A DNA stretch of 64,000 nucleotides from positions 310,001 through 374,000 of the forward strand of contig NZ_PXYJ01000001.1 of NCBI RefSeq assembly GCF_003012815.1. Direction: 5' to 3'. The translations under genes were made by a program, and so were the position numbers. Each line of letters begins with the position of its first letter. Position 1 is the first letter of the stretch. The notes beneath the pieces are model-generated. The model was not told where the DNA came from. It saw nothing but the letters and a program-made list of their open reading frames with translations, and searched no databases. This document shows positions 20,260 through 36,288 of the stretch, piece after piece. The DNA comes from Allosphingosinicella vermicomposti (GTDB lineage: Bacteria > Pseudomonadota > Alphaproteobacteria > Sphingomonadales > Sphingomonadaceae).

Positions 20260-20337
20260 CCGCTAGCCCTGAGCCTGTCGAAGGGCGTGTGAAGGGGGGG
20301 GATGCCCACGCCCTTCGACAAGCTCAGCCCTAGCGGG
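20260..20337. repeat. REP-like inverted repeat, family B
   Basis: Left arm CCGCTAGCCCTGAGCCTGTC begins at 20260 and the right arm GACAAGCTCAGCCCTAGCGG ends at 20336. The arms are inverted complements with one mismatch around a G-rich spacer. It lies downstream of ftsZ and is followed by a second copy about 50 bp away. Confidence 0.8.
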
Positions 20338-29177: not shown

Positions 29178-29944
29178 AGGATATTGACGACAGCAAGGCG
29201 CCGTTGATGGAGCATCTGATCGAGCTCCGCCGCCGCCTGGTTTGGTCCCTTTTGGCCTTGTTCGCCGCCTTTGGCGTCTGCTTTTACTTCGCCGACCATA
29301 TTTTCGCGTTTCTTGCCCAGCCACTTGTCCATGCCTTCGGGCCGGGGCAGGGGACATTGGTCTATACCAAGCTCTATGAGGCGTTTTTCGTCGAGGTGCG
29401 GGTGGCTTTGTTCGCCGCGTTCTTCCTCGCATTCCCGGTCATCGCCAACCAGATCTGGGCGTTCGTGGCGCCGGGCCTCTATGCCAATGAGAAGAAGGCG
29501 TTCCTGCCCTTCCTGATCGCCACCCCGATCCTGTTCGTGATGGGCGGCGCGCTGGCTTATTATGTGGTCATGCCCACCGCGTTCAAATTCTTCCTGCAAT
29601 ATGAAGGCAATATCGGCGGGATCGAGCAGCAGGCGCTGCCCTCGATCGGCGACTATCTCTCGCTCGTCATGCACTTCATCCTCGCCTTCGGCATCGCGTT
29701 TTTGCTGCCGGTGCTGCTGATGTTGCTCGAGCGGGCAGGGATCGTCACGCGGCAGCAGCTCGCTGGCGGGCGCCGCTATGCGATCCTGATTGCATTCGTG
29801 GTTGCAGCGGTCGCGACGCCGCCCGATATCCTGTCCCAGTTCATGCTCGCGATCCCGCTCATCCTGCTTTACGAACTTGCGCTAATGGCGATCTGGTTCA
29901 CCGAAAAGCGCCGAGAGCGGGCCGCGCAAGAGAGCGAAGCCTGA
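29174..29944 (+). CDS. tatC: Twin-arginine translocase subunit TatC
   Basis: This 256-aa membrane protein starts at ATG 29174 in an ATGA overlap. It has about six membrane helices. Conserved blocks are [15 protein letters not shown] near the N-terminus, [20 protein letters not shown] and the late [13 protein letters not shown]. It is the signal-peptide receptor of the Tat pathway. The next gene starts at its last base. Confidence 0.95.
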
Positions 29945-31659
29945 TGGCCGCGCGGGGCCTGCCCTTCGTCCGCGCAGAGGAAAAGGGTGGCCCGGATTGG
30001 ACGCGTCCCTTTCCTGTCCGCCACGACGGCAAGGTCACGCCGTTGATCGAGGCTGCGGACATGTTTCCGGCGCTCGAAAACCTTGTGCTGGATGCCAAGA
30101 TTTCGGTCTGGATGTCCTTTCGCGTCTTCGATCCCGACACCAAGCTCCGTTCCGATCGTGCGAAAGCGAAGGGGCTGGAGGATTGGTCGGCGCTGCTGCA
30201 TGACGCGGTGAAACGCGGTGTGGAAGTGCGCATCCTGCTGGCCGATTTCGAGCCGGTGCTAGCCGATTATCTCCATGCCGGATCCTGGTCGACCTATCGC
30301 CGCATCCGCGCCATCATCGACGAATTGGATGAGGAGGAGCGTCCGCGCCTCCAGCTTATGGTCGTGCAGCATGAAGGGGAGATGGGTTGGGGAATACGTC
30401 AGGCGCTTCGCTTCGCTTTGCGATCCCGCATACGCAATGTGGTCGAGGGCCTGATCGCGGCGAAGAAGAGGGACGATGGCGGGTTCGATACGCGTCCTGG
30501 TTTGTGGCGTTACCTGAGCTGGGAGAAAAACAAGCCCAAAGCGTGGAAGGCTGGCCCGCCGCCACGTTTGTGGCCTGCGACCTATCACCAGAAAGCGGTG
30601 GTCGTGGACGGCGGCGTTGCCATTGTCGGCGGCATCGACCTCGACGAGCGGCGCTGGGACGACCGGCGGCACCGGCAGCGCACGGACCAGACCTGGCACG
30701 ACATTTCGGCCCGGGTTGAAGGCGCGGCGGCGGCTGACGTCGCCCGGCATTTCAAATTTCTGTGGAATCGCGAGCTGCCCCGCTATCGTGAGATCGTCGC
30801 CGGATGGACCGATGGATGCGGGCGCGAATTGATGCTCGATCCGCTTACACCGGTCGGTGCGCTTCCAAAGCCCGAGGCTGTGAAGGGGAATGCGGAGGTT
30901 CAGATCGTCCGCACGCTGTCCGTCCGCTCCCCCTTACCCTTCGCGATTGGGCCTCGCCAACGGGTTCGCGAACTGAAGGCCGCCCACCGCAACGTCATTC
31001 GCGCCGCACGCCGCACACTTTATATCGAGGCGCAATTCTTCCGGTCGGACGATGCCGCCAATTGGGTCGAACAGGCCCTTGAGGCGTCGCCCGACCTTCA
31101 GGTTATCGTTCTGATCGCCAATGTGCCCGAAGAAGTGGCGTTCGAGAAGCAAACGGACAATCTTGCCCATCGGCATGGCGAATATCTCCAGGCGCGGGCG
31201 CTTGGCCGCTTGATCGAAAAGGGCGGCGCGGACCGGGTGGGCCTCTTCACGCTCGCCAAGCAGGAAAAGGTAAAGCCCGGGGAGAAGGAGTTCGAGGCGA
31301 CGCGCGGCTCCGCTTATGGATCGGGCGTCATCCATATTCATTCGAAGCTGCTGATCGCGGACGACGATATTTGCCTGCTCTCATCCGCCAATATCAATGG
31401 CCGAAGCTTCGATTGGGACACCGAGCTTGGCTTTATCTGGCGGGAGGAGGGCGGAGCCATTTCCCGCTTCCGCAATGGCCTGTGGCGGCAATTATGGGGC
31501 GGAACGTTGCCCGATGAGCTTGCCGGATGGCGAAAGATGGCGGAGGCCAATCGCAGTGCGAAGCCGGAGGATCGGCGGGGGTTCGTCGTTCCCTATCAGC
31601 TCAACCGCGCCAAAAAGTTCGCGCGCCCGTATTTGTTCGTGCCTGACGATTTGGTGTGA
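29944..31659 (+). CDS. Phospholipase D-family protein with two HKD motifs
   Basis: This 571-aa protein starts at ATG 29944, sharing one base with tatC. The first HKD motif is YHQKAVVVDGG (His215) with GGIDLDERRWDD. The second is HSKLLIADDD (His466) with SSANINGRSFDWDTELG. Both catalytic His-Lys-Asp sets are intact. No signal peptide or membrane segment is evident. It resembles bacterial PLD/eukaryotic-like PLD proteins that hydrolyse or transfer phosphatidyl groups. The substrate is unknown. A terminator hairpin follows. Confidence 0.85.
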   Translation: MAARGLPFVRAEEKGGPDWTRPFPVRHDGKVTPLIEAADMFPALENLVLDAKISVWMSFRVFDPDTKLRSDRAKAKGLEDWSALLHDAVKRGVEVRILLADFEPVLADYLHAGSWSTYRRIRAIIDELDEEERPRLQLMVVQHEGEMGWGIRQALRFALRSRIRNVVEGLIAAKKRDDGGFDTRPGLWRYLSWEKNKPKAWKAGPPPRLWPATYHQKAVVVDGGVAIVGGIDLDERRWDDRRHRQRTDQTWHDISARVEGAAAADVARHFKFLWNRELPRYREIVAGWTDGCGRELMLDPLTPVGALPKPEAVKGNAEVQIVRTLSVRSPLPFAIGPRQRVRELKAAHRNVIRAARRTLYIEAQFFRSDDAANWVEQALEASPDLQVIVLIANVPEEVAFEKQTDNLAHRHGEYLQARALGRLIEKGGADRVGLFTLAKQEKVKPGEKEFEATRGSAYGSGVIHIHSKLLIADDDICLLSSANINGRSFDWDTELGFIWREEGGAISRFRNGLWRQLWGGTLPDELAGWRKMAEANRSAKPEDRRGFVVPYQLNRAKKFARPYLFVPDDLV

Positions 31660-31754: not shown

Positions 31755-31883
31755 TTAATCGGCGGCGTCTTCAACCGCTTCACCGGCGGACTGGACATCC
31801 TGGCCAACACCTTCGACCGTGTTGCAGGCCGCGAGCGCGAAGCTGGTGGTGAGGGCAAAAAGGGCGATGAACTTCCGAATCAT
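31755..31883 (-). CDS. Entericidin A/B-family small lipoprotein
   Basis: The preferred start is ATG at 31883, giving 42 aa beginning MIRKFIALFALTTSFALAAC. The lipobox LAAC gives a lipid-modified Cys20. The mature part NTVEGVGQDVQSAGEAVEDA is the entericidin signature (NTxxGxGxDV). The open frame extends upstream to 31964 without family support. Entericidins are small outer-membrane-directed lipoproteins often controlled by stress sigma factors. A near-consensus EcfG promoter is upstream. Confidence 0.88.
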   Translation of the reverse strand: MIRKFIALFALTTSFALAACNTVEGVGQDVQSAGEAVEDAAD

Positions 31884-31945: not shown

Positions 31946-31970
31946 AATGTTCGCGCGTTCCCATGGTTCC
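31946..31970 (-). promoter_or_regulatory. Possible EcfG-type promoter for the entericidin gene
   Basis: On the minus strand GGAAC (31970-31966) is followed after 16 bases by CATT (31949-31946), one mismatch from the EcfG -10 CGTT. Transcription would begin about 55-60 bases before the ATG at 31883. Confidence 0.35.
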
Positions 31971-32035: not shown

Positions 32036-32158
32036 AAAAATCGGAGTTTAGAAAGTTTTGAGCCCGGAGGCGCTACCGGGGGGGGGGGGGAGGTTAGCGC
32101 GTCCGGGCTCATGTCTTGGATAGCGAGAGCGGGGGGGCAAAAGGTCACTATCCAAACT
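32036..32158 (-). ncRNA. Candidate stress-regulated sRNA with two C-rich loops (GsrN-like)
   Basis: Reading the minus strand from a predicted start near 32158, the first element is an 8-bp stem (32148-32155 with 32116-32123, TTGGATAG/CTATCCAA) whose loop carries CCCCCCC. The second is a 16-bp stem with one mismatch (32095-32110 with 32060-32075; arm GAGCCCGGACGCGCTA) whose 19-nt loop contains CCTCC and a run of 13 C. A GGAAC-N17-GTT promoter sits immediately upstream. Caulobacter GsrN is an EcfG-class, C-rich-loop sRNA, and C-rich loops pair with Shine-Dalgarno sequences. The 3' end is unclear: a T-run lies at about 32037-32041, without a classical terminator. Confidence 0.5.
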
Positions 32159-32162
32159 GCAC

Positions 32163-32187
32163 AACAATGTTGGCAGCGGGTTGTTCC
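32163..32187 (-). promoter_or_regulatory. EcfG-type promoter for the candidate sRNA
   Basis: On the minus strand GGAAC (32187-32183) and GTT (32165-32163) are separated by exactly 17 bases, matching the alphaproteobacterial general stress sigma consensus GGAAC-N16/17-(C)GTT. The first stem of the RNA starts 8 bases downstream. Confidence 0.55.
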
Positions 32188-32296: not shown

Positions 32297-32467
32297 GTGA
32301 CCAAGCCGCCAAAATCCACGCCCCATTCCGATCTCGATGGCATCCATGAGGATGAACGGCGGAATATCGATGCTGCGAACGAGGCGGGGCAGGGATCGGA
32401 CGACCTTGCCCGTGCCCGTAAGGAGAGCGTGGCCCGCCCTGTGCCCAGCAATGAACGGGACGGTTAG
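32297..32467 (+). CDS. 56-aa hydrophilic protein in the stress island
   Basis: GTG 32297 is preceded by a near-perfect Shine-Dalgarno AAGGAGAT with 6-nt spacing. The frame encodes 56 residues beginning MTKPPKSTPHSDLDGIHEDE and ending PVPSNERDG. It is charged, without hydrophobic segments or Cys, and looks disordered or helical. Its TAG overlaps the phyP stop tail to tail. No family was recognised. A possible EcfG promoter and the island location suggest a stress-induced small protein. Confidence 0.6.
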   Translation: MTKPPKSTPHSDLDGIHEDERRNIDAANEAGQGSDDLARARKESVARPVPSNERDG

Positions 32468-34029
32468 AGAATCGCGATATTGAGCGAATAGACGCCTTTA
32501 TCGCCATCCTTGTTCATGGCGGTACGAAGCTGGCGGGACAGGCCTGTGACAATGCGTTCGAACCGCTCGGTCAGCGTTTCGCCGCAGGCGGCGTCATCTT
32601 TCAGGCTTTCCGACATGACCGATAGCGCCGCGGTGCCGTCGCCATTGTCGGCGAGCGCGATCATCACGGCGCGGGCCCCGCAGAACATCGCATATTCGAC
32701 GATCTCGGTGATCAGGAAGGCCACGGAGACCGCGACATCCTGCGTGACGTGGACCGGCGCGACGTTGAGCGCGATCGTCATATTGGCGGCCGTGGGCGGC
32801 GCCGTTCCGCGAAGGTTGGAACTCAATTCGGAGATGAGCGATTTCAGCGCGACGCCGCGATTTTGCTCAAGCTCCGCATAATGGTTGCGGTGAACGACCG
32901 CGAGGGCGTCCACGCGGCGCTGGATCGAGGCGTAAGCGGCCGCCACCGCTTCATCCGCCGACCCGCGCGAATGGATATTGAGCAGGGATGCTACGACCTG
33001 CAGGTTGTTCTTCACCCGGTGATGGACTTCGCGCACCAGCTTCTTCTGCCGCTCTACTGCATCTTCAAGATCGGCCTCGTGACGGGCGACGGTACGGGTG
33101 AGGCCTTCAAAGGCGTCACCCAATTCCTGAATCTCGCGCGCGGGGGTGCGGACGAGGGGAAGATAGAATTCGCGGTCGCCTGGCTGATAGGCGGACACCA
33201 CCTTTTGCATCCGGACGAGCGGACGGAGGAGCAACCGGCTGACCACCGCCCAGCCGATGATCGCGGCGCCGATCCACATCAAAACCGGCAGTACGACCAT
33301 CATGAATTCGGTTGCCGTAACGGGGACGGCACCCGCAACCACGCGGAGAACAAGGCCGTCATTGGCGAGTGGCTTTGAAAGCGCGATCGTTTCGACGAGC
33401 GGGCCGGGCCGGAACCCGCTGACCAAACCCATCGACCGTCCGCCCTGTGTCAGGTCCAAGCTGTAATCGGCATCGACCCCCGGCGGGACCGCTAAGCGGC
33501 GAACCAGGTCGACTGGTAATTCCCCCATGCCCTCGACCCGGCCACCACCGCTGAACAGGGTGAAACGAAGGGCTTCGCCCTCGGGCAGAATCTCGATGAC
33601 GGCGCCGGTGCGGTCTAGGCTGGCGGGGATGGCGGGCGCTACGAAATCCGGGGTAGCGCAGCGGGGACGGCCGTCTGGACCATAAAGCGCATAACGGCCG
33701 CTGGTGCCCGCGCTGCTGAGGCGGCGCAGCGTCGCTTCGCAAACCCCGGACCCTTCCGGTGCAAACTCGATCGCGGCATTGGCGGCACGAATGGTGATCG
33801 CGATGCGGGACAAGGCGAAGTCGATGCGCTGCGCGGACAATTCAAGCCGGCCCTGCGCCTCCGCTTCCCGCCGCATCCGGTTCTGGTCGGCGCTTTCGAC
33901 CGAGGCGAAGATCGCGATGACCAGCAGTGGCAGTAAGAAGCCCGCCATGATGACGAGCATCTTCGGCCCGGTTGGAAGCCGGGAAAAAAATGCGAACAAT
34001 CGATGATGGTTGAAGCGAATCACGCTCAA
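32464..34029 (-). CDS. phyP: PhyP-like HisKA_2 sensor with degenerate ATPase domain
   Basis: This 521-aa protein has membrane helices at about 23-43 and 243-263 enclosing a periplasmic sensor region. A HAMP-like linker follows, then a HisKA_2 dimerisation domain EVHHRVKNNLQVVASLLNIH with His336/337. The catalytic half is eroded. The N-box reads ITEIVEYAMF with no Asn, and the DxGxG and GLGL boxes are not recognisable. That fits Sphingomonas PhyP, known as a negative regulator acting as PhyR phosphatase and encoded beside nepR-phyR-ecfG. It lies downstream of nepR on the same strand. The sensed signal is unknown. Confidence 0.8.
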   Translation of the reverse strand: MSVIRFNHHRLFAFFSRLPTGPKMLVIMAGFLLPLLVIAIFASVESADQNRMRREAEAQGRLELSAQRIDFALSRIAITIRAANAAIEFAPEGSGVCEATLRRLSSAGTSGRYALYGPDGRPRCATPDFVAPAIPASLDRTGAVIEILPEGEALRFTLFSGGGRVEGMGELPVDLVRRLAVPPGVDADYSLDLTQGGRSMGLVSGFRPGPLVETIALSKPLANDGLVLRVVAGAVPVTATEFMMVVLPVLMWIGAAIIGWAVVSRLLLRPLVRMQKVVSAYQPGDREFYLPLVRTPAREIQELGDAFEGLTRTVARHEADLEDAVERQKKLVREVHHRVKNNLQVVASLLNIHSRGSADEAVAAAYASIQRRVDALAVVHRNHYAELEQNRGVALKSLISELSSNLRGTAPPTAANMTIALNVAPVHVTQDVAVSVAFLITEIVEYAMFCGARAVMIALADNGDGTAALSVMSESLKDDAACGETLTERFERIVTGLSRQLRTAMNKDGDKGVYSLNIAIL

Positions 34030-34062: not shown

Positions 34063-34266
34063 TCAGCCCAGCTTGCCGAGCAGATCCAGCATTTCAGGCG
34101 GGATATCCTCATTCACCGTCTGCTGATAGACAGAGCGAAGGGCGTTGCCGAGCTCCGGAGAGGACGGCTTCTTTTCCGCAGGATTTGCGTTGGGCGCGGC
34201 ATTTTTATCGGCCAGCCTTTCTTCCTTGCGCCGGCCTTCGCCGTCTTTGTCGTAATGAAAGCTCAA
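34063..34266 (-). CDS. nepR: Anti-sigma factor NepR
   Basis: This 67-aa protein starts at ATG 34266. A polar N-terminal tail is followed by the NepR core ELGNALRSVYQQTVNEDIPP and then MLDLLGKLG. The pattern GxxLRxxY...P...LLxxL is diagnostic. NepR binds EcfG and is sequestered by phosphorylated PhyR. It is transcribed away from phyR, with phyP 33 bp downstream. An EcfG-type promoter lies about 120 bp upstream, implying feedback. Confidence 0.93.
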   Translation of the reverse strand: MSFHYDKDGEGRRKEERLADKNAAPNANPAEKKPSSPELGNALRSVYQQTVNEDIPPEMLDLLGKLG

Positions 34267-34396: not shown

Positions 34397-34421
34397 AACA
34401 AAAAACTCAGCCGTTGGTTCC
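34397..34421 (-). promoter_or_regulatory. EcfG-type promoter of nepR-phyP
   Basis: On the minus strand GGAAC (34421-34417) and GTT (34399-34397) are separated by 17 bases. Transcription would start near 34390 and leave a leader of about 120 nt before nepR. This matches known autoregulation of the stress locus. Confidence 0.6.
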
Positions 34422-34555
34422 ATACAGGGTGTGAAGGGCGGGCAAGACCGGTTTCTTCGTGCAGAATTGGTTCAATTGCATGCTCGCGGTCGGGCTTGCA
34501 AAGCAGGGGGCGGGCTCTCAAGTATCGTCCTGTTCATGAAGGAGTCGTAACGAAA

Positions 34556-35353
34556 ATGTCGCTTGGCCAGGAACTCGCGCCTCATCTTCCTTTCTTGCGC
34601 CGCTATGCCCGCGCGCTCACCGGATCGCAGCAGCATGGCGACGCTTTCGTGCGCGCAACGCTGGAGGCGATCGTTCAGGCGCCGGACGATTTTCCGCGTG
34701 ATGTCGACGCCCGCCTTGGTCTCTACCGGACTTTCCACGCCATCTGGTCTTCCGCGAATATCGAGGAAGATCCGGGCGCGGGTTCGGGGATCGAGGATCC
34801 GGAAGATGTCGCCCGCGCGCGTCTCGCCCGCATCACCCCCTTGTCGCGTCAGGCATTGCTGTTGACCGCGATGGAGGGCTTCACGACCGAGGATGCGGCC
34901 TATCTCATCGGGTCGGACGATGAGGATGTCGAACGCTTGGTTGCCGAGGCGCTTCAGGAAATCGAGCGTCAGACCCGTGCCGAAGTTCTCATCATCGAGG
35001 ACGAGCCGATCATCGCAATGGATATCGAGACGATTGTTCGCGATCTCGGCCACACGGTCACCGGCGTCGCCGTCACGCGCGATGAGGCGGTGGCGCAGGC
35101 CCGCGCGCACCGGCCAGGGCTCGTCCTTGCCGATATTCAGCTCGCCGACGACAGCTCCGGCATCGACGCTGTTAAGGACATTCTCGCCGAATTTTCGGTT
35201 CCGGTTATCTTCATCACGGCTTTCCCCGAGCGTCTGCTGACGGGCGAACGTCCGGAGCCGACCTTCCTTATCACCAAGCCGTTCCAGCGTTCAACGGTGA
35301 AGGCCGCCATCGCGCAGGCCTTGTTCTTCGACACGGCAACCGTTCCGGCCTGA
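34556..35353 (+). CDS. phyR: General stress response regulator PhyR
   Basis: The start is ATG 34556 (MSLGQELAPHLPFLRRYARA), with AAGGAG upstream. The open frame extends to 34496, but those residues do not fit the family. It gives 265 aa. The N-terminal sigma-like domain occupies about residues 1-135 (FLRRYARALTGSQQ, LTAMEGFTTEDAAYLIG). A receiver domain follows, with IEDEPIIAMD and phospho-acceptor Asp193 in LVLADIQL. Phosphorylated PhyR binds NepR by sigma mimicry and frees EcfG. It is divergent from nepR. Confidence 0.95.
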   Translation: MSLGQELAPHLPFLRRYARALTGSQQHGDAFVRATLEAIVQAPDDFPRDVDARLGLYRTFHAIWSSANIEEDPGAGSGIEDPEDVARARLARITPLSRQALLLTAMEGFTTEDAAYLIGSDDEDVERLVAEALQEIERQTRAEVLIIEDEPIIAMDIETIVRDLGHTVTGVAVTRDEAVAQARAHRPGLVLADIQLADDSSGIDAVKDILAEFSVPVIFITAFPERLLTGERPEPTFLITKPFQRSTVKAAIAQALFFDTATVPA

Positions 35354-35361
35354 TAACGATT

Positions 35362-35394
35362 GGAACCTGCCGACGCATCTGGCGTTGGCAGGTT
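35362..35394 (+). promoter_or_regulatory. EcfG promoter embedded in a 13-bp hairpin
   Basis: GGAAC (35362-35366) and CGTT (35383-35386) are 16 bases apart, a perfect EcfG consensus. The same bases form a 13-bp inverted repeat (35364-35376 with 35382-35394, arm AACCTGCCGACGC, one G-T pair) around a 5-nt loop, 10 bases after the phyR stop. It may both terminate or protect phyR mRNA and start the downstream transcript. No strong T-tract follows. Confidence 0.65.
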
Positions 35395-35422
35395 TCGAAC
35401 TTACTTATGGGGAGCGGCAAGA

Positions 35423-35557
35423 ATGGATGATCGCCAGCATATCGGTACGACGGAAGCGCGCGCTGGCGCGACGCCACGCATGACGCGGGTCATCCTTTCG
35501 GTCTCGCTCATGCTTGTCGTTCTGCTGTTCGCACTCATCCTTTTCGTCTGGCGTTAA
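35423..35557 (+). CDS. 44-aa single-span membrane protein between phyR and ecfG
   Basis: The start is ATG 35423, with GGGGAG upstream. The peptide starts MDDRQHIGTTEARAGA and ends with one membrane helix from about residue 23 (TRVILSVSLMLVVLLFALIL) and FVWR. A polar N-terminus and C-terminal anchor suggest an inner-membrane tail-anchored peptide. It is the first gene after the perfect EcfG promoter and precedes ecfG by 86 bp, so it is probably stress induced. No family was recognised. Confidence 0.7.
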   Translation: MDDRQHIGTTEARAGATPRMTRVILSVSLMLVVLLFALILFVWR

Positions 35558-35643
35558 ATACTTACGTCAATTTCCGTACTGCCACTCCACTTAAAATAAG
35601 CGAAGAATGGCATATGCTTACCGCCTCACACGGGGGATCCACG

Positions 35644-36288
35644 ATGGTCGGCGATACGCCAGCCGCTACGAGCGAAAATACTGCGCCGGACGTTCTCGTC
35701 CCGCTGCCCGACGATGAATTCAAGGATCAGCTGGCGCAGGTCATTCCCCATTTGCGCGCATTCGGCCGCTCTCTGTCGGGCAGCCGCGACATGGCCGACG
35801 ATCTTGTCCAGGAAACCTTGCTCAAGGCATGGGCCGCCCGCAAGCGTTTCCAGGCTGGCACGAATATGCGGGCCTGGACCTTCATCATTTTGCGCAACCT
35901 GTTCCTCTCGCAAATGCGCCGAGCCCGCTTCAAAGGCGAATGGGACGAGATTACAGCGTCAAAGCTGCTCGCCGCGCCCGCCAGCCAGGATCGGCATGTG
36001 GAGTTGGGCGACATGCAGCGCGCATTGATGCATTTGCCGCAACCGCAACGCGAGGCACTGATCCTCGTCGGCGCGGGAGGCTTTGCCTATGAGGAAGCGG
36101 CCGAAATCTGCGGCTGCGCGGTGGGCACGATCAAGAGTCGCGTCGCGCGTGGCCGTGTCGCGCTCGAGCAAATCCTGAGCGAGGGTAAGTTGCCGTCGCG
36201 TCGCGAACATGAAACGGACGCCGACAAGACCGCGCTACAGAGCATCATGAGCGAGGTCGACGAGCTGAGCCGCGATCGAGAGATTTGA
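35644..36288 (+). CDS. ecfG: General stress response sigma factor EcfG
   Basis: The preferred start is ATG 35644 (MVGDTPAATSENTAPDVL) after GGGGGAT, giving 214 aa. An in-frame ATG at 35614 would add 10 residues. Sigma region 2 includes HLRAFGRSLSGSRDMADDLV and NMRAWTFIILRNLF. Region 4 has LPQPQREALILVGAGGFAYE and the helix-turn-helix CAVGTIKSRVARGR. It directs RNA polymerase to GGAAC/GTT promoters such as those seen around it, and NepR inhibits it. Confidence 0.95.
   Translation: MVGDTPAATSENTAPDVLVPLPDDEFKDQLAQVIPHLRAFGRSLSGSRDMADDLVQETLLKAWAARKRFQAGTNMRAWTFIILRNLFLSQMRRARFKGEWDEITASKLLAAPASQDRHVELGDMQRALMHLPQPQREALILVGAGGFAYEEAAEICGCAVGTIKSRVARGRVALEQILSEGKLPSRREHETDADKTALQSIMSEVDELSRDREI

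Follow-up and report, generated by a model that had tools for sequence, protein, structure and literature searches.

A putative EcfG-driven small RNA with two C-rich loops beside the sphingomonad general stress locus

Does the general stress locus of this sphingomonad hold, besides its protein genes, the gene of a small RNA controlled by its own sigma factor? A preliminary description of the 64-kb window (the whole stretch of DNA that was analysed) had proposed such an RNA beside the PhyR-NepR-EcfG locus, with a minus-strand GGAAC-N17-GTT promoter and two stems with C-rich loops. Its placement is borne out, as the element adjoins the stress kinase gene and phyR, nepR and ecfG lie nearby (Table 1). 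We consider it likely that this is the gene of a trans-acting general stress sRNA of about 105–110 nt, driven by EcfG, whose C loops would pair with G-rich ribosome-binding sites. Within the same locus, a 65-aa ORF between phyR and ecfG (35360–35557, plus strand) has a hydrophobic C-terminus and no Pfam match, and overlaps the ecfG promoter.

Table 1. Features of the putative sRNA gene and its surroundings in the window
Feature	Position	Strand	Remarks
Putative small RNA, ~105–110 nt, two hairpins and T-rich terminator tail	32049..32158	-	Fold, homologues, covariation, tail statistics
EcfG-type promoter of the sRNA	32163..32187	-	GGAAC 32187–32183, N17, GTT 32165–32163; read directly
Hairpin 1	32115..32156	-	Loop CCTTTTGCCCCCCCGCTCT, C7 at 32137–32131; the RNA is best conserved at this C core
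Hairpin 2 (terminator stem)	32059..32111	-	Loop ACCTCC..C, C13 at 32090–32078
Entericidin (EcnA/B family) lipoprotein gene, downstream neighbour	31755..31883	-	PF08085
Own EcfG-type promoter of the entericidin gene, GGAAC-N17-ATT	31946..31970	-	Equivalent in 30/39 loci
HWE/HisKA_2 histidine kinase of the stress locus	32464..34029	-	
nepR, anti-sigma factor	34063..34266	-	TTG start; G-run ribosome-binding site GAGGGG 34280–34275
EcfG-type promoter before nepR, GGAAC-N17-GTT	34397..34421	-	
phyR, anti-anti-sigma response regulator	34547..35353	+	
EcfG-type promoter before ecfG, GGAAC-N17-GTT	35362..35386	+	
ecfG, general stress sigma factor	35614..36288	+	
Phospholipase D-like gene between entericidin and tatC	29944..31659	+	Match in 7/60 regions

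The promoter is present as described, and transcription from it would start at about 32155–32158 on the minus strand. Both strands of the window together hold four GGAAC-N17-GTT sites, compared with 1.1 expected (60 first-order Markov sequences), and three of the four belong to the stress locus, standing before ecfG, before nepR and before the sRNA. The motif agrees with those given for EcfG in S. melonis (GGAAC-N17-20-GTT; PMC6599016) and S. granuli (GGAAC-N16-CGTT; PMC7083833).

The RNA is predicted to fold into two hairpins. The C7 loop of the first had been recognised correctly; its stem, described as 8 bp long, comprises 12 predicted pairs (32156–32145 with 32126–32115), with nine modelled in relatives. 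Stem 2 agrees with the earlier reading of 16 bp and one mismatch around a loop with CCTCC and C13 (10 + 6 pairs, 32111–32095 with 32075–32059), and two further C-G pairs are predicted inside its loop. Except for the first C of C7, every C of both runs is predicted to be at least 98% unpaired. The 136-nt strand folds at −47.3 kcal/mol vs −26.4 ± 3.1 kcal/mol for 200 shuffled sequences, none of which folds as well (z −6.7). About 12 runs of at least seven G or C would be expected in the window; it has four, and the sRNA loops account for two of these. A G8 run at 20294–20301 lies beside an apparent inverted copy of a CCCTTCGACAAGCTCAG-type repeat.

Directly after stem 2 comes the tail AAAACTTTCT (32058–32049). 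Across 50 loci, the T fraction behind this stem is 0.54–0.80 at positions 3–8 vs 0.14–0.36 from position 9. Stem 2 therefore has the GC-rich hairpin and T-rich tail of an intrinsic terminator, T-rich from position 3 and with no textbook T run.

How far does the element extend among relatives? A DNA search recovered it in 24 of 25 same-genus relatives, in three of 10 genomes that represent other genera of the family, and in none of 24 genomes of other families. GGAAC-N17-GTT lies 7–8 bases 5' of stem 1 in 28 of the 29 loci from this search, the 29th being a chance match (L029, a second match), and its 17 spacer bases vary among the 28. A pattern scan of named genomes, using an N18 spacer, returned 28 stretches, and both C-loop hairpins could be read in all of them. 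They come from 27 assemblies whose titles give Sphingomonas, Sphingomicrobium or Sphingomonadales bacterium, names from which we take the family to be Sphingomonadaceae.

We also searched with two covariance models, R1, made from the RNA alone without the promoter, and the broader R2; searches of more than 40 genomes were run under stricter filters. R1 matched 120 of 298 family genomes (E up to 0.01) and 91 of 296 order genomes (E up to 0.1), with one match outside the family (L145), which has no promoter. Six of 289 class genomes were matched (E up to 0.05, strict filters), of which only two are convincing, both in the window's family. With R2, matches were obtained in 122 of 298 sampled family genomes, representing 42 of 96 genera (E up to 0.001) and including some weak ones without promoter; where inspected, the promoter was missing at the matches of G028, G226, G086 and G078 and at weak second matches of G000, G008, G307 and G072. 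Within the genus, 25 of 26 genomes have model matches, as do all 21 of those with completeness of 90% or more and contamination of 5% or less. An EcfG response can do without the RNA, since over half of the family genomes sampled have no match. Thirty match-less genera showed no promoter followed by a C run within 1.5 kb of tatC (two loci were shorter) and no match in a whole-genome model search; seven of these 30 also had no PhyR match (E up to 1e-40).

Because the promoter was excluded from the covariance model, its presence upstream of matches is separate evidence. GGAAC-N17/18-GTT was found just 5' of 50 of 60 inspected model matches, spanning 38 genera, and at all 48 inspected matches that score at least 37 bits. 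The weaker two of the 50 are L149 and L114 (g46), and in L114 the promoter ends 12 bases upstream of the match. The 60 regions were picked by hand, mostly one per genus, plus second copies, weak matches and more members of the genus; 11 further regions picked likewise stand outside this count. Ten matches of at most 36.3 bits that have no promoter (L109, L134, L140, L142–L146, L148 and L150) were discarded as chance or other hairpins. The motif as searched was also missing at L248–L252 and L256, L248 having GGAGC instead of GGAAC.

Two side observations came from these lists. L169, from another family of the class (G628), has two hairpins with C7 and CCTCCCCC loops and no GGAAC-N17-GTT; it was not counted and is perhaps a relative, perhaps a convergent C-loop RNA. 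A hairpin with a long C/T loop of the CCTCCTCCCCTCCCCC type recurs at G000:C2:69406-69486 (minus strand; L146/L173) and at L144, L250 and L256. It comes right after an ORF ending in ..APSLDLVGKI, and in L173 an ORF starting with MLDANLKEQLKAYL is next; the flanking ORFs look like ahpC and ahpF, so that a peroxide-defence operon may hold a further C-rich-loop element.

The preliminary description had named conservation of the stems and C-rich loops in relatives, and covariance of both stems, as checks. Hairpins, loops and promoter do recur in the 38 genera, with covarying stems and the C core of loop 1 kept. In a model-fitted alignment of 53 diverse sequences, which by its construction leans toward the structure, 95.7% of cells pair, compared with 31–42% in slid controls; double changes affect 24 of 25 pairs (182 cells vs 34 in shuffles), and the covariation score is 0.471 vs 0.176 shuffled and 0.07–0.10 slid. 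A MAFFT alignment of 35 sequences, not fitted to the model, gave 95.5% pairing cells (29–46% in slid versions) and double changes in eight of 25 pairs (3.7 in shuffles), or 40 cells vs 12.9. Stem 1 had no double change in this unfitted alignment, and pair types numbered 23 vs 23.0 in shuffles. We conclude from homology and covariation in relatives that the element is real.

The gene order ecfG-phyR-nepR-kinase, RNA, entericidin, tatCB is conserved. Among the 50 promoter-bearing regions, tatC lies downstream of the RNA on the opposite strand in 43, and phyR falls inside the 4-kb flanks at E below 1e-50 in 35.

What might such an RNA do? EcfG RNA polymerase would initiate it at GGAAC-N17-GTT, hairpin 2 with the T-rich tail would terminate it, and both hairpins would present single-stranded C-rich loops. 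Under stress, these loops may pair with G-rich ribosome-binding sites of mRNAs, which would lower their translation, or raise it by opening structure. A loop mechanism of this kind has precedents: the papers concerned establish it for sX13 (PMC3771888) and lend support to it for GsrN (PMC5869019).

The nepR mRNA of the same locus would be a plausible direct target, and silencing of NepR would prolong the stress response. In the window, nepR reads GAGGGGTAAAGG-N2-TTG; TTG also opens the top-scoring nepR window at 21 of the 32 RNA-bearing loci compared. When the starts of nine locus genes were compared, nepR stood out, with a duplex energy of −18.3 vs −13.3 for the control and a run of four or more G near the start in 88% vs 8% (n=32). 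G-runs were also common near ecfG starts (44% of 25), and at ecn, kinase, phyR, tatC and tatB starts they were near background (0–17%). With an HMM-based search for nepR, 30 of 34 RNA-bearing loci proved to have such a run close to the start, vs 7 of 22 distinct genes of RNA-less genera (8 of 24 rows, two genes occurring twice), with 11–12% at random positions (Fisher p 2.4e-5, uncorrected for phylogeny). These 34 are the loci among the 50 in which nepR and its start could be located, and the count leaves out the remaining 16; each start, in either group, is the best among about 2.9 in-frame candidates, and random controls were matched. The RNA-less genes come from ecfG loci, which yielded nepR in 22 of 23 genera (phyR loci, in 2 of 23). 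The comparison has to be read with the other locus layout of RNA-less genera in mind, and with a profile built from RNA-bearing loci, several of them of one genus.

Predicted pairing was less specific. For loop 1 and nepR it is −20.2 in the window vs −16.5 with shuffled flanks. Over 35 loci, however, the flanks of the loop 1 C run added nothing (−18.8 kcal/mol vs −18.7 kcal/mol flank-shuffled; 18 of 35 better), so that only pairing of the C run with the G-run is supported and specificity for nepR is unproven. Complements of loop 1 in its own genome with at most one mismatch number 183 vs 133 for the reversed pattern, and 59 vs 84 in a second comparison; the exact ones besides the RNA and nepR (2 + 2) include none at an evident start. 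Because flank shuffling leaves the pairing intact, locus layouts differ and related genomes are not independent, we regard nepR as a candidate target and not as a finding. Only tentatively, then, do we suggest that the EcfG-made RNA silences nepR through its G-run site, a post-transcriptional positive feedback in keeping with a nepR G-run that is retained along with the RNA and mostly missing in its absence.

The RNA could instead act as a broad damper of translation in stress, an anti-Shine-Dalgarno RNA of the cuckoo/alpha-r14 type with no special link to nepR. We regard this as possible, since flank shuffling shows no nepR-specific pairing on average and CCTCC, the anti-Shine-Dalgarno core, occurs in loop 2 and its edges in 34 of the 53 rows of alignment A5 (which excludes L109, all matches above E 5e-6 and the window, and includes the close relative G008); it sits less well with a loop 1 that is a C run between largely fixed neighbours (TTTG, GCTC) and not CCUCCUCCC, or with the way nepR stands out among the nine locus genes.

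Could the C runs be mere composition or slippage, in a strong terminator or protein-binding hairpin pair with no base-pairing role? Stem 2 and its tail resemble an intrinsic terminator, and loop 2, whose longest C run in A5 is anything between 3 and 12, is conserved no better than its stem (0.73 vs 0.76). Loop 1 behaves otherwise: it is slightly more conserved than stem 1 (0.89 vs 0.85), its CCCCC core is invariant in all 53 rows, and 36 of the 53 have 7 as the length of its longest C run (range 5–10). The dedicated promoter right upstream likewise speaks for more than a terminator. In addition, some genomes carry extra copies outside the stress locus that have the promoter but replaced stems (L147, L246, L247, L151 and L149). 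L147 and L246 keep the promoter and TTTGCCCCCCCGCTC of loop 1 on other stems, which marks loop 1 as the constant part; L247 keeps CCCCCCGCTC, and L151 and L149 keep C runs only. We therefore find a role without base pairing improbable.

The element could also be a long 5' leader acting in cis on the entericidin mRNA, as 39 of the 50 promoter-bearing loci have this gene directly downstream of the RNA, on its strand, and ecnAB is described as EcfG-dependent in Sphingopyxis granuli (PMC7083833). The gene has an EcfG-type promoter of its own (GGAAC-N16..18-RTT) in 30 of these 39 loci; no separate promoter was found in the remaining nine, four of which start the gene within 45 bases of the RNA end. 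A stand-alone transcript of 105–110 nt is the simplest reading of that promoter together with the T-rich tail after stem 2. The RNA also occurs without the gene, as the extra copies L147, L246 and L151 have no entericidin match nearby. We set the leader aside as quite improbable and conclude, from these sequence features, that the RNA probably stands alone. A small protein starting at the ATG that stands at the foot of stem 2 in loci of the genus is scarcely credible and was rejected, as relatives differ by single bases in the length of the C run behind it, which breaks the frame, and the ATG is missing in many other genera.

Is the RNA one already known? Rfam 15, proposed earlier as a check, returned no match at gathering score in the window and none in four divergent loci, and a known Rfam RNA was accordingly rejected; at E up to 10, the only match was a microRNA on the other strand, far below the cut-off. 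The main text of two sphingomonad EcfG transcriptome papers (PMC6599016, PMC7083833), queried by term searches, mentions no EcfG-dependent sRNA. Searches of the open literature for sphingomonad sRNAs with EcfG or the general stress response showed no paper on such an RNA; a further paper (PMC8103513) speaks of RpoE sRNAs. With this element the sphingomonad group gains a concrete, widely conserved gene for deletion, and feedback on NepR becomes a testable idea.

HPnc5490 of Helicobacter pylori, also known as RepG, carries its C-rich loop in the terminator, and in that system the G-run of the mRNA is the varying partner. The sRNA described here has C-rich loops too, but its own C run varies between species. 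The HPnc5490 loop is reported to repress TlpB synthesis (PMC3771888). In sX13 of Xanthomonas, stable stems with apical C-rich loops, an arrangement shared by the sRNA here, repress mRNAs with G-rich motifs near the start; sX13, however, has three C4/C5 loops and is Hfq-independent (PMC3771888, as described there), whereas here there are two loops, mostly C7 and C5–C13, behind an EcfG-type promoter.

Like alpha-r14 (NfeR1), CcsR and the cuckoo RNAs, the element belongs to alphaproteobacterial hairpin RNAs in which stems vary and loops are conserved. The loops of alpha-r14 are an anti-Shine-Dalgarno motif, CCUCCUCCC, identical in all three hairpins, and CcsR and the cuckoo RNAs have the same loop letters. 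Cuckoo and alpha-r14 RNAs carry two to four hairpins, and CcsR sits behind a DUF1127 gene under RpoHI/HII. Repeated hairpins with variable stems and conserved loops characterise these RNAs, some of which are stress-linked (PMC10746234, PMC10253847, PMC4504443). The sRNA here differs in its EcfG-type promoter and in the unlikeness of its loops: loop 1 is of the CCTTTTGCCCCCCCGCTCT type, loop 2 has CCTCC in the proportion given above, and no CCTCCTCCC is repeated.

Erythrobacter litoralis is a relative of the sphingomonads. The GsrN study puts forward the idea that GsrN-like sRNAs form a general arm of the stress response in Alphaproteobacteria and names E. litoralis as an outgroup without apparent gsrN-like gene; the EcfG-driven sRNAs that it proposes, on grounds of position and promoter, come from Caulobacteraceae, Rhizobiaceae and some further genera of rhizobia (PMC5869019). 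The absence of an obvious sequence relation to GsrN, noted at the outset, agrees with what we found and with GsrN BLASTn hits that are described as stopping at Caulobacteraceae (PMC5869019); we gauged the relation indirectly, by R1 in the 289 class genomes, where convincing members occur only in the window's family. GsrN is given as a transcript of about 100 nt with an EcfG-type promoter, close to ecfG-nepR-phyR in most species, and its exposed C-rich 5' loop should recognise G-rich sites in mRNAs (PMC5869019). Cleavage to a stable 5' isoform, stabilisation by Hfq and katG as a target also characterise GsrN. The sRNA here shares the promoter type, the proximity to ecfG, nepR and phyR and, by prediction, the exposed C-rich 5' loop; it differs in its usual neighbours, entericidin and tatCB, and in that it has two C-rich loops, of which loop 2 lies within the terminator. 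We conclude that it resembles GsrN in promoter, place and loop, a likeness short of established homology, which suggests that an EcfG-driven C-rich-loop RNA recurs with unrelated sequence.
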